From positions 744,001 through 808,000 of the forward strand of contig CAJXLB010000001.1 of NCBI GenBank assembly GCA_913055905.1: a stretch of 64,000 bases of DNA. The letters are read 5' to 3'. Of this stretch, positions 25,124 through 28,017 are shown piece by piece. The notes beneath the pieces were generated by a model. That model saw only the letters and a list, made by a program, of their open reading frames with translations. It was not told the DNA's origin and ran no database searches. The translations under genes and the position numbers were made by a program. Source of the stretch: an uncultured Winogradskyella sp. (GTDB lineage Bacteria > Bacteroidota > Bacteroidia > Flavobacteriales > Flavobacteriaceae). Every line of letters begins with the position of its first letter. Position 1 is the first letter of the stretch.

Positions 25124-26511
25124 TAAACACTCATTTCTGTGAAGTATTTATAGAACCATGGAATGGTCTCTATACCCTTAAGGTAGTTCCACACCCCAAA
25201 ATGTTCGTTCGGTGAATGTATGGCATCGCTATCCAATCCAAATCCCATTAGGATGGTCTTGCTGCCGAGTTCTTTTTCAAAGAGTGATACAATAGGAATG
25301 CTACCACCGCTACGTTGCGGTATAGGTGTTTTTCCAAAGGTTTGCTCGTAAGCTTTAGATGCGGCCTTATAGCCAATAGTATCTATAGGTGTGACATAGC
25401 CTTGTCCTCCGTGGTGAGGCGTCACTTTCACCTTCACGCCTGCCGGAGCAATACTTTCAAAATGAGTTTTAAACAGTTGGGTGATTTCTTTCCAGTCTTG
25501 ATGTGGCACAAGTCGCATGGATATTTTTGCATAAGCCTTGCTGGCAATAACTGTTTTTGCACCTTCACCAATATAGCCGCCCCAGATGCCGTTGACATCC
25601 AAGGTAGGACGAATACTGTTCCGTTCATTTGTAGTGTAACCTTTTTCGCCATAAACGGCATCAATATCTAATGCCGACTTATAGTCTTCTAAAGAAAATG
25701 GTGCTTTTGCCATTTCGGCACGTTCTTCCTTGGATAATTCCTCAACCTTATCGTAAAATCCAGGAATGGTGATATGGTTATTTTCATCATGTAACGAAGC
25801 AATCATTTTAGCCAGCACATTAATAGGGTTAGCAACCGCACCTCCATAAAGTCCTGAATGTAAATCCCTATTTGGTCCCGTAACCTCTACTTCGACATAA
25901 CTTAGACCTCTTAGTCCTGTGGTAATTGAAGGTACATCTTTAGCTATCATACCAGTATCGGAAATAAGAATAATGTCGTTAGTAAGTTTTTCTTTGTTTT
26001 TAGCAACAAACTCAGCTAAGTTTTCACTACCTACTTCCTCTTCGCCCTCAATCATAAATTTAACGTTACATGGCAATTGGTTTTCCTTGGTCATATATTC
26101 CAAAGCCTTCACATGCATGTACATTTGGCCTTTATCGTCACAGGCACCTCTGGCAAAAATGGCGCCGTCAGGATGTAATTTCGTTGCTTTAATAACCGGT
26201 TCAAAAGGTGGCGACGTCCATAACTCTAAAGGGTCTGGCGGTTGTACATCATAGTGTCCGTAAACTAAAACCGTTGGTAAGGATTTATCTACTATTTTTT
26301 CGCCATAAACAATAGGATAGCCTTTGGTTTCACAGATTTCTACTTTATCACAACCTGCTTTTGTAAGACTAGATTTGACCGCTTCGGCCGTTTTTAGAAC
26401 ATCATTTTTATAGGCTGAATCTGCACTAATTGATGGGATTTTAAGAAGATTGATCAGTTCTTCAATAAAACGGTCTTTATGATTTTGAATATAAGCTGAA
26501 ATGGAGGTCAT
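25123..26511 (-). CDS. M20 family dipeptidase
   Basis: 462 residues from ATG 26511 (MTSISAYIQNHKDRF); a 13-residue longer start exists but overlaps likely promoter sequence. M20 di-zinc residues are H86/D88 (VYGHYDVQPPDP), D in ARGACDDKGQ, the Glu pair in IEGEEEVGSEN, D in ISDTGM, and the late His in SDAIHSPNE. There is no signal peptide, so it is a cytoplasmic dipeptidase of the CNDP/PepV-like branch. It is the first gene of a two-gene unit with the DoxX-like protein. Confidence 0.92.
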   Translation of the reverse strand: MTSISAYIQNHKDRFIEELINLLKIPSISADSAYKNDVLKTAEAVKSSLTKAGCDKVEICETKGYPIVYGEKIVDKSLPTVLVYGHYDVQPPDPLELWTSPPFEPVIKATKLHPDGAIFARGACDDKGQMYMHVKALEYMTKENQLPCNVKFMIEGEEEVGSENLAEFVAKNKEKLTNDIILISDTGMIAKDVPSITTGLRGLSYVEVEVTGPNRDLHSGLYGGAVANPINVLAKMIASLHDENNHITIPGFYDKVEELSKEERAEMAKAPFSLEDYKSALDIDAVYGEKGYTTNERNSIRPTLDVNGIWGGYIGEGAKTVIASKAYAKISMRLVPHQDWKEITQLFKTHFESIAPAGVKVKVTPHHGGQGYVTPIDTIGYKAASKAYEQTFGKTPIPQRSGGSIPIVSLFEKELGSKTILMGFGLDSDAIHSPNEHFGVWNYLKGIETIPWFYKYFTEMSV

Positions 26512-26576
26512 AGTATAGTTTTTCGATTTAGTCAAAAATACAAAAACCAAGACTCTTTTTTCTTAAATAAAAGGAG

Positions 26577-26606
26577 TTTGAATATTCAAACTATTGTTTA
26601 TATTTG
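26577..26606 (+). promoter_or_regulatory. Promoter of the tRNA-Leu region
   Basis: TTTG (26577-26580), 18 nt, then TATATTTG (26599-26606), a near-ideal Bacteroidota promoter. It lies 11 bp before the broken first tRNA-Leu copy; no comparable box precedes the intact tRNA, so the intact copy is probably expressed from here. Confidence 0.8.
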
Positions 26607-26617
26607 CAGTCCTTATT

Positions 26618-26680
26618 GCGGGCGTGGTGGAATTGGTAGACCTGTCTGCCGACAGGCAGGCACGCTAGAATAGTCTAGCG
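26618..26680 (+). pseudogene. Degenerate tRNA-Leu copy, 5' part, interrupted by a palindromic repeat
   Basis: Bases 26618-26640 are identical to the first 23 bases of the intact tRNA-Leu (26729-26751). A 20-bp repeat (26641-26660) follows, after which the match resumes with CACGCTAGA. The anticodon loop and everything beyond are replaced: CGCTAGA-ATAG-TCTAGCG forms a hairpin (26663-26680). The acceptor 3' strand is missing, so no functional tRNA can form. Confidence 0.8.
26641..26660 (+). repeat. Short palindromic repeat inserted in the D-loop of the tRNA-Leu remnant
   Basis: CCTGTCTGCCGACAGGCAGG, in which CCTGTC pairs with GACAGG and, alternatively, CTGCC with GGCAG. It breaks the tRNA-Leu homology exactly at the D-loop. 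From memory this type of motif (its complement CCTGCCTGTCGGCAGACAGG) recurs in Flavobacteriaceae intergenic regions; a genome search would confirm this. Confidence 0.65.
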
Positions 26681-26728
26681 TTTAAAAAGGTTGAGCAGTT
26701 TAATCACGGTTGTTTTAAGGAAAATATT

Positions 26729-26810
26729 GCGGGCGTGGTGGAATTGGTAGACACGCTAGACTTAGGATCTAGTGCCGCGAGGTGTGGGAGTTCGAGTCTC
26801 CCCGCCCGCA
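26729..26810 (+). tRNA. tRNA-Leu (TAG)
   Basis: An 82-nt class II tRNA with acceptor GCGGGCG / CGCCCGC and discriminator A. The anticodon stem CTAGA / TCTAG encloses the loop CTTAGGA with TAG at 26763-26765. A short variable arm follows, with a standard T arm (GGGAGTTCGAGTCTCCC). CCA is not encoded. It is the only intact copy in a three-copy cluster and is followed by its own terminator. Confidence 0.96.
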
Positions 26811-26824
26811 CGATTTAAAATTGG

Positions 26825-26851
26825 AGCTTCTTGGAAACGAGAGGCTTTTTT
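26825..26851 (+). terminator. Terminator after tRNA-Leu
   Basis: A 7-bp stem AGCTTCT / AGAGGCT (one G-T pair) with a T tract to 26851. A near-copy of this terminator recurs after the downstream tRNA remnant. Confidence 0.75.
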
Positions 26852-26877
26852 GTTTTAAATAATATTAAAAAGGAATT

Positions 26878-26930
26878 GGGAGACGAGAAGCCTGTCCTGA
26901 GCGCAGACGAAGGGAGTCTCCCCGCCCGCA
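26878..26930 (+). pseudogene. Degenerate tRNA-Leu copy, 3' part, T-loop interrupted by a repeat
   Basis: GGGAG (26878-26882) starts a T arm whose loop is expanded by 26883-26911, including a REP-like element. The end 26915-26930 (AGTCTCCCCGCCCGCA) is identical to the 3' end of the intact tRNA-Leu, including acceptor strand and discriminator. The 5' half is absent. A second terminator hairpin follows, as after the intact gene, which supports a duplicated tRNA-plus-terminator unit that decayed. Confidence 0.75.
26891..26913 (+). repeat. REP-like element (CTGAGCGCAG core) inside the tRNA-Leu remnant
   Basis: The core CTGAGCGCAGACGAAGG resembles the repeat at 50312-50329 (CTGAGTGCAGTCGAAGAG) within this window. 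It occupies what would be the T-loop of the degraded tRNA. Such CTGAG-GCAG-CGAAG elements are, from memory, dispersed in many Flavobacteriaceae genomes. Confidence 0.6.
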
Positions 26931-26945
26931 CAGAATAACAAAACG

Positions 26946-26972
26946 AGCTTCTCTAATTGAGAGGCTTTTTTT
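26946..26972 (+). terminator. Second copy of the tRNA-Leu terminator
   Basis: An 8-bp stem AGCTTCTC / GAGAGGCT (one G-T pair) with a 5-nt loop and a T tract (26966-26972). It closely resembles the terminator at 26825-26851. Confidence 0.75.
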
Positions 26973-27042
26973 ATGACAAATCTTTTTTTTAGCGCACACT
27001 TGAAAGATAGTCGGTATTACGTGAATACGCCTTGCAGCGATT

Positions 27043-28017
27043 TCAATCTATTTTAAACGCAAATGAAGTTTCTTGCCTATAAATGTCCCCAGGTTGTAAT
27101 AATGTTGATGGAAAATGCTCATGATGCGGCGAATCTGGGAAATGTTGCGTTTCAAAACAAATGGCTGGAAACTTAGAATAGACAGTAGCATTCTTAAAAT
27201 TAAAATTAGGGAATTCTGGAGGCGTAAATACCACCATGGCAGGTTGGTCGGAATACACGTGCATTTCTATTCCACTAGATTCTGATTTTAGTATAGCTTT
27301 TAACCGGTCGTTCCTTGTTATAAAAGTGTCATCTAGACCAATAAAACTTGGTTGGTCAATTGTTTTGAGATGCGTGTAGTCGTACCTTGAATGCTTCACT
27401 TGGAGAATTTGTCCGGTTGGAATTAATCTATTGTCGACTTCAAGATATTCGTCACTTAGTATTTTTAATTTGTGGTTTAGAATAGTGCCCTCTCCATTTA
27501 GATTAAAATATGAGTGATTGGTTAAATTGACATGAGTAGTCCTATCCGTTTCGGCTACATAATGTAGTTTCAGTTCATTGCTTTCAGTAATAGTATAGGT
27601 TAAAGAAACTTTTAAATTCCCTGGGTAGCCTTCCTCCATATGAGGACTGAAACAGGTTAATACCGCTGAATTTTTAGAGTGGTGCTGAACGGACCATAGC
27701 TTTTGATCAAATCCTTTTTTACCACCATGAAGATGAACACCGTTAAGGTTATATAATGGGTATTTGATATTGTCAATTTCAAAAAACCCTTTTGAAATCC
27801 GACCTGCATATCTGCCTACAGTACTGCCGAGATACAATCTTTCCTTGAGGTAGCTTTTAGAACTGTAGTCTCTTTGATTTTCTAAAGTTGCAACAACATT
27901 TATTGGTTTACCGTTTTTATTTGGAACCAAGAGTTGCGTTATAGTGGCACCAAGGGTGCTAAGTTCTAATGTTATTCCGTTAGCGTTACTTAAAGTAAGT
28001 ATATCTGAATCAGTCAA
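27043..28017 (-). CDS. galM: Aldose 1-epimerase (mutarotase)
   Basis: 324 residues with the GalM beta-sandwich and both catalytic residues: His in NLTNHSYFNLNGEG and Glu in AICFETQHFPDSP, with the substrate Asp in FIGLDDTF. It interconverts alpha and beta anomers of galactose or glucose. There is no signal peptide, so it is cytoplasmic. It is 14 bp downstream of the sodium/sugar symporter gene and completes the GH53-DUF4174-symporter-GalM run. Galactose liberated by GH53 is one substrate; beta-glucose from the GH65 phosphorylase is another. Confidence 0.93.
   Translation of the reverse strand: MTDSDILTLSNANGITLELSTLGATITQLLVPNKNGKPINVVATLENQRDYSSKSYLKERLYLGSTVGRYAGRISKGFFEIDNIKYPLYNLNGVHLHGGKKGFDQKLWSVQHHSKNSAVLTCFSPHMEEGYPGNLKVSLTYTITESNELKLHYVAETDRTTHVNLTNHSYFNLNGEGTILNHKLKILSDEYLEVDNRLIPTGQILQVKHSRYDYTHLKTIDQPSFIGLDDTFITRNDRLKAILKSESSGIEMHVYSDQPAMVVFTPPEFPNFNFKNATVYSKFPAICFETQHFPDSPHHEHFPSTLLQPGDIYRQETSFAFKID

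Follow-up and report, generated by a model that had tools for sequence, protein, structure and literature searches.

How did a single intact tRNA-Leu(UAG) gene come to stand between two incomplete pieces of itself, each carrying a palindrome at a loop of the tRNA? The initial annotation of the window (the whole 64,000-nucleotide stretch of DNA analysed here, from an uncultured Winogradskyella sp.) read the locus as three tandem gene copies, two of which had decayed when wandering palindromes landed in their loops.

Anatomy of the array at tRNA-Leu(UAG)

All parts of the array lie on the plus strand. A promoter-like region, TATATTTG, read from the sequence at about 26577-26606 and presumably of the Bacteroidota type, precedes the broken head, as had been claimed. 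A sigma-70 scan of 26500-27100 found no plus-strand promoter, and the Bacteroidota promoter type lies outside that scan's model. The 5′ head copy (26618-26640) comprises the 5′ acceptor strand and the D-arm up to the end of the D-loop, and lies inside a 28-nt exact repeat (26614-26641 and 26725-26752). It is plugged by the 20-bp palindrome CCTGTCTGCCGACAGGCAGG (26641-26660), inserted after head nucleotide 23 or, because of one C in common, equally writable after nucleotide 24. Beyond the plug, the 3′ D-stem strand and an anticodon-stem strand are closed as a hairpin (ACGCTAGA-ATAG-TCTAGCGT, 26661-26680), and a spacer with partial complementarity to the head (26681-26728) leads to the intact tRNA-Leu(UAG) at 26729-26811. 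This tRNA was found by ARAGORN and by the Rfam covariance model RF00005 (60 bits), and tRNA calling with both returned no other tRNA at the array.

Terminator 1 (26823-26851) follows the intact tRNA. Further downstream come the left strand of a plugged T-arm, GGGAGAC (26878-26884), which in the fold meets the complementary GTCTCCC of the tail; a REP-like T-loop plug with a core matching the pattern GAGAAGYYTRTSCTGAGCGNAGNCGAAG (26885-26912); the 3′ tail copy (26914-26931), an 18-nt exact repeat of 26794-26811; and terminator 2 (26945-26972), which has 13 nt exactly in common with terminator 1. A terminator scan places the two sites at 26823-26848 and 26945-26967, against a shuffle mean of 0.5. 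Because of the 28-nt and 18-nt exact repeats, the pieces can be traced to the tRNA-Leu(UAG) gene. The remnants with outer ends identical to the intact gene, the palindrome in the D-loop, the REP-like element in the T-loop and the one terminator per tail were thus all described correctly at the outset, but the count of three gene copies was not. Neither remnant is a whole copy: the left one runs from the 5′ end through the anticodon stem, and the right one consists of the T-arm and 3′ acceptor strand only. Moreover, 29 tRNA-Leu(UAG) loci from relatives, in which two or three intact genes had been envisaged, contain one intact gene each.

Set against the regions upstream of the single tRNA-Leu(UAG) in six relatives, the 75 nt 5′ of the plugged head show 0.65-0.85 identity, whereas the 75 nt 5′ of the intact copy reach only 0.55-0.60. 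Because the upstream sequence of the head matches the relatives better, this comparison places the plugged head, together with its promoter, at the ancestral position of tRNA-Leu(UAG). In a search of 397 family genomes, the exact head element of the window occurred in one genome only, its own; a near copy, with a near-identical hairpin beside the plug, is present in Galbibacter sp. (L232).

The spacer at 26681-26728 is the place where other cassettes used for comparison (L002/L107) carry a GIY-YIG gene, and it contains no GIY-YIG ORF. None of the PF01541 matches listed falls in 26661-26728 or 26812-26884, intervals that are too short for such a gene, and the spacer shows no recognisable relic of one. 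Because its own array lacks the nuclease gene, the window can represent at most a derivative of a full GIY-YIG cassette. At Rfam gathering scores, no known RNA family was found at the plugs of the window and 17 further loci; a group I intron in the tRNA gene was rejected on the same scan, in which no intron structure appeared there.

The plugged head and tail could also be working parts of RNA or DNA, such as a selected leader, operator or processing signal, which may control a nuclease or insulate the tRNA while it folds. The leader (26616-26728) folds with z = -6.0 and its hairpin beside the plug is retained in another genus, and the plug conservation and T-arm pairing described below also favour this reading. 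However, the fold of the window's T-arm alone is unremarkable (z -0.64), and mean acceptor pairing, which is 0.80 for the tRNA alone, is 0.43 with the plugged head and 0.37 when the plug is deleted in silico. The plug improves pairing in 13 of 52 and worsens it in 2, so that equilibrium folding lends weak support at best to the idea that it protects the folding of the intact tRNA, and this idea was set aside. The nuclease gene described in the next section would also be left unexplained by functional parts alone, and we regard this reading as rather unlikely.

Plugged heads and the nuclease genes behind them

The genome to which the window belongs (2.95 Mb, with 35 tRNA matches above the family cut-off) contains the 18-nt core of the palindrome, at up to two mismatches, at two sites, both of them D-loops of tRNA-Leu heads. 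The second site, 602 kb from the window array, is a head of tRNA-Leu(CAA), in which the same plug sequence occupies the same position and an 83-aa GIY-YIG ORF lies between plugged head and intact tRNA. The ORF of this sister cassette (168364-168567, contig 1) matches PF01541 with 60.3 bits, above the cut-off of that family; in NCBIfam the protein matches only TIGR01453, with 21-22 bits against a cut-off of 56. In front of tRNA-Arg(UCG) in the same genome are two tandem GIY-YIG copies, each behind a head plugged by another hairpin, and in the leftmost head 2 of 7 acceptor bases deviate from the intact tRNA-Arg. When the flanks of 32 distinct tRNA sequences of this genome were scanned, head copies appeared at Leu(UAG), Leu(CAA) and Arg(UCG), and a tail copy solely at tRNA-Leu(UAG).

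With the tRNA-Leu(CAA) GIY-YIG protein of this genome as query, a search of the genus at E<=1e-12 returned eight matches in 6 of 68 genomes, at Leu-CAA (3), Arg-UCG (3), Met (1) and Arg-ACG (1). Read by eye, all eight have a plugged head before them and an intact tRNA after them, which one of them reaches via a tandem copy. A family search of 219 genomes (218 genera) at E<=1e-10 gave 65 rows in 38 genomes; 30 of these rows were taken up as loci in a combined analysis of 35 loci from both searches, among which L332 gave no copy. The 46 GIY-YIG copies found have a head copy upstream in 35 cases and a plugged head in 33 (26 loci). The position of the plug is nearly constant: 28 of the 33 plugged heads carry the insert after nucleotide 22 (class I tRNAs) or 24 (Leu), and the other five after nucleotide 6, 9, 11, 16 or 18. 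In several heads the 5′ side of the D-loop contains a further insert. Plug sequences are very diverse, yet 24 of the 30 distinct inserts fold so well that no more than 10 of 200 own-letter shuffles equal them.

For 13 of the 46 copies no plugged head was scored, including five without a downstream tRNA. These five, at four loci, are placed after a tRNA or tRNA tail, and the 1.4 kb downstream of them contain no tRNA; nuclease relatives downstream rather than upstream of a tRNA or tRNA tail are seen in L324, L330, L331 and L340. Tandem nuclease copies are spaced at 300-368 bp. Between head and intact tRNA, the acceptor strand shows 4 mismatches in 7 bases in L108 and L320, 2 in L067 and 1 in L232. 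On the minus strand of L232 (Galbibacter sp. EGI 63066, about 1354-1705), three successive tRNA-Leu heads of two acceptor types precede an intact tRNA-Leu(UAG), which looks like cassettes inserted one after another. In L042 (G008) and L043 (G006), a small hairpin stands at the end of a tRNA-Leu(UAG) head, and the full tRNA-Leu(UAG) that comes next has another acceptor stem, an apparent replacement of the tRNA.

A second survey started from DNA. The pattern TTGGT-N(0-3)-palindrome, scanned in GTDB genome contigs, occurred in at least 114 stretches and at least 123 sites. Among the matches listed, 63 of 123 sites are tRNA heads with the plug at the D-loop end, the test being agreement with a neighbouring tRNA at 11 or more of the 14 bases in front of the palindrome. 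The plug position is partly built into this count, because the pattern fixes the distance on the left; the right side is unconstrained, and in 54 of the 63 heads among the matches listed the four bases after the palindrome equal the next four of the tRNA. A GIY-YIG ORF, sought in the interval from 40 bases ahead of the plug to 700 bases beyond it, is present at 39 of these 63. In the first 86 sites among the matches listed there were 45 heads, 37 with the same next four bases and 26 with a GIY-YIG ORF. The tRNAs of the 63 heads among the matches listed are Leu (46), Asn (7), Ile (3), Val (3), Phe (2), Met (1) and Thr (1). By taxon, these 63 comprise Bacteroidota (39), Omnitrophota (4), Ignavibacteriota (1) and Pseudomonadota (1), the rest being mostly Patescibacteria-type candidate phyla; single-case taxa could be binning errors, because many records are metagenome-assembled genomes (MAGs). 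The 60 of 123 sites among the matches listed that fail the head test include 10 with a GIY-YIG ORF, and some of them (L181, L237, L249) look plugged by eye. In a gammaproteobacterial MAG (L188, 2230-2863), a plugged tRNA-Ile head lies within the 16S-23S spacer of an rRNA operon.

The nucleases behind these heads group together. In 32 aligned rows, the residues Y, Y.G, R, H and E are kept at 90%. On a tree of 84 domains built from 68 columns, the 32 head-type nucleases, from several phyla, need 2 label changes against a shuffled mean of 25.9, and 48 other GIY-YIG rows, a sample taken entirely from the genus with a tRNA in the stretch for a few (L159, L161, L165), fall apart from them. Between 31 head-type ORFs, one duplicate being left out, pN/pS is below 0.5 in 85 of 85 pairs at 65-97% identity (median 0.29), and by this measure the ORFs are under purifying selection. 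GIY-YIG proteins in general are not a tRNA-linked group: the best 30 PF01541 loci of the genus include none with a tRNA within about 1.5 kb. Among 19 further GIY-YIG loci, hand-picked partly for tandem copies, seven have a tRNA.

The plug is conserved as well. In ten Leu(CAA) cassettes found by protein, seven of ten plugs are identical and mean plug identity is 0.96 (36 equal-length pairs), in a comparison that required plugs starting with CC and ending with CAGG and left out L323, where the 3′-side plug is gone, and L324. The heads of the same cassettes are 0.73 identical, some being displaced by a second plug, the spacers 0.37 and the upstream regions 0.30, and pS of the ORF is 0.70. A neutral landing scar should not be conserved to this degree, to judge from plug identity set against spacer identity and the pS of the adjacent gene.

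These observations bear on neutral decay, in which a tRNA gene is duplicated in tandem, dispersed palindromes hit the redundant copies and insertions in the needed copy are purged. Outside tRNAs, members of the same palindrome family are indeed scattered through other genomes of the genus, decay is visible in some tails (L289, L292), and the five aberrant inserts among 33 heads suit such a process. In the window's own genome, however, the palindrome core occurs only in two tRNA heads, and random insertion should often strike stems, anticodon and variable arms too, whereas the plugs keep to nearly one point, are conserved in sequence and are associated with one nuclease lineage, whose gene often lies between the tRNA pieces. 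By the initial annotation's own reckoning, remnants at unrelated sites would speak against decay, and the plugged-head structure does stand at other, unrelated tRNA sites. The decay account holds in part: the duplicated tRNA ends, the palindromes in loops and the one intact copy are there, but unguided decay by wandering palindromes does not fit plug positions that are found again at many tRNAs and in numerous lineages. Given that the plugs are non-random, we judge neutral decay unlikely. Instead, the array and its recurrences look like the trace left by a mobile element resident in tRNA genes, because the pattern recurs at many tRNA genes and in distant bacteria, often with a nuclease gene.

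The T-loop element on the 3′ side

The core GAGAAGYYTRTSCTGAGCGNAGNCGAAG occurs in the genus in 23 rows from 16 of 68 genomes, at 22 distinct sites. At 17 of the 22 it is followed by a copy (10 or more of 14 positions) of the tail of the upstream tRNA, which is Leu-UAG, Thr-UGU, Met, Trp or Gln. The remaining five sites are a tandem pair in L288, where no tRNA was called; degraded tails in L289 (Gln) and L292 (third Thr copy); and in L307 a tail of Met type, again with no tRNA called. Reading by eye gave 17 of 17 for a pattern with some of the tail built in, a count biased by design. In the arms around the core, 81 of 96 positions pair over 16 distinct pairs in the genus, against 70.2 when shuffled, with 3 of 5000 shuffles as high, the register being the best of six.

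In G023, identity to the region downstream of the single tRNA of G007 is 0.91 for the DNA behind the tail copy and 0.64 for the DNA behind the intact tRNA; for G020 against G007 the values are 0.79 and 0.65. Against G019 neither side stands out (G023 0.64 and 0.65; G020 0.61 and 0.69). Because of the comparison with G007, which is one genome, the plugged tail looks like the old end of the gene and the end of the intact tRNA like the new one, at least in G023.

An ordinary origin of this element would be placement by a RAYT (Y1) transposase, as for other REPs. The core does resemble a dispersed REP-like sequence downstream in L083, and a Y1 transposase is encoded in 4 of the 16 genomes that contain the T-loop core; yet with Y1 in 12 of 68 genomes an overlap of 4 is close to the chance expectation of 2.8, and the genome of the window (G000) gave no Y1_Tnp match at E<=1e-8. 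In addition, a tRNA tail copy follows 17 of the 22 sites, and to our knowledge tail duplication is no part of REP transposition. We set RAYT aside as the driver of the T-loop element, and consider such an origin very unlikely.

The scars of integrase-driven islands, which would have used the tRNA as attachment site before being lost, offer another source of displaced tails. In G002 (L044, 700-1000), a 3′ half of tRNA-Leu(UAG) about 43 kb from the intact gene resembles such a site and is probably the attachment site of an integrated island. Hairpin plugs and restoration on the head side, however, are not features of att sites as far as we know, and this source seems to us most improbable for the array.

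The overlap between the two element types is 3 of the 6 head-type GIY-YIG genomes among the 16 genomes with the REP-like core. Nuclease-bearing T-arm cassettes were found at two loci of G090 (L157, L158), with hairpins other than the REP type; no nuclease could be linked to the REP type itself. In L158 (880-2050), two tRNA-Pro copies have the T-arm replaced by a hairpin and are each followed by a GIY-YIG ORF; an intact tRNA-Pro and three hairpin-tail copies continue this array. In a cluster of 18 tRNAs with a phage-like look (L087, G079:C17), a T-loop REP element separates tRNA-Leu(UAG) from the tRNA after it.

A candidate tRNA-invading cassette and its known relatives

We lean towards the view that the window array goes back to a SegB-like homing cassette that invades tRNA genes, of which it is a nuclease-free derivative, and consider this moderately probable. 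A full cassette consists of a small GIY-YIG gene between a D-loop-plugged 5′ copy of a tRNA and an intact tRNA. The nuclease would cut a tRNA gene at the D-loop, and repair would copy the cassette in, restoring an intact tRNA downstream. The resident 5′ end would remain as a plugged, uncuttable head, and the plug, which in the head position data sits at the inferred cutting site, would both mark and protect the old site. In a mirror type, a T-loop-plugged 3′ end would be left behind, with a second terminator. The tRNA of the window array shows the D-loop type on its 5′ side and the T-loop type on its 3′ side; the nuclease gene would have been lost from this array, and the sister cassette at tRNA-Leu(CAA) could act in trans. 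Such mobility would be that of a homing cassette which inserts a copy of itself into a tRNA and brings a functional tRNA with it, and the tandem nuclease copies, one-point plugs and acceptor-mismatched heads fit this picture. The intact tRNA keeps an unplugged D-loop and would need another reason for escaping cutting.

More tentatively, and with a little less than even confidence, we propose an apparently undescribed class of mobile elements in which one GIY-YIG lineage cuts the D-loop and a second lineage the T-arm, the tRNA is restored or replaced, and the displaced half is sealed by a hairpin and made uncuttable. The class would extend over Bacteroidota, Patescibacteria-type phyla, Omnitrophota, Ignavibacteriota and Pseudomonadota, and the window would show both seals on one tRNA. 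If this is true, a very small selfish element of definite anatomy invades, and sometimes replaces, tRNA genes in several phyla, which bears on the movement of tRNA genes between species. It would also provide a compact candidate nuclease with a predicted target among life's most conserved sequences, and account for some of the tRNA fragments and short 'GIY-YIG' ORFs that genome annotations list.

The closest known counterpart is a phage enzyme. T6 SegB is described as a GIY-YIG homing endonuclease that cleaves within tRNA genes; tandem tRNA-segB arrays, which arise by recombination, depend on it, and its motif RAWTSGAAC, present at 23 of 83 cleavage sites, is preferred but not required (PMC13096335). 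The reverse complement of this motif, derived here, is GTTCSAWTY, a T-loop pattern to which the T-loop of the window, GTTCGAGTC, fits at 8 of 9 positions. SegB, free-standing in the tRNA region of phages T4/T6, resembles the bacterial cassettes in its GIY-YIG domain and in a gene that adjoins tRNAs. It differs in being a phage gene, whereas the bacterial cassettes encode single-domain proteins of about 83 aa and carry a duplicated, hairpin-plugged tRNA head.

A viral source for the bacterial elements was considered and rejected. A tblastn search of 50,697 phage records with the protein of the window's genome gave no match at E<=1e-5, and a scan of IMG/VR found one contig with the D-loop pattern (L285) and no contig with the REP pattern of the T-loop. 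At 1182-1416, L285 has a D-loop-plugged head and a GIY-YIG ORF, with a group I intron further on.

Mitochondrial endonuclease elements, such as that at atp6 of Allomyces, also insert an endonuclease gene that supplies a new end of the host gene and displaces the resident one. They concern a protein gene in an organelle, whereas the bacterial cassettes concern a tRNA gene, and we know of no hairpin plug in them. The RtT repeats at tyrT of Escherichia coli are tandem repeats that each contain a 3′ tail of the tRNA gene; neither a D-loop or T-loop plug nor a nuclease is known to us from that locus. REP palindromes and their RAYT transposases (PMC3733652) share with the T-loop core the form of short palindromes, whereas the T-loop element is tRNA-bound with tail duplication and stands in a genome without a Y1 transposase match. 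The consulted part of a phylogenomic study of GIY-YIG proteins (PMC1564403) mentions tRNA three times, never in connection with plugged heads, and the titles and abstract openings of the open-access literature, subscription papers lying outside this search, yielded no description of plugged tRNA heads with GIY-YIG genes. The cassettes apparently belong to a known kind, that of free-standing homing endonuclease cassettes, and their new part is apparently the hairpin-plugged tRNA halves.
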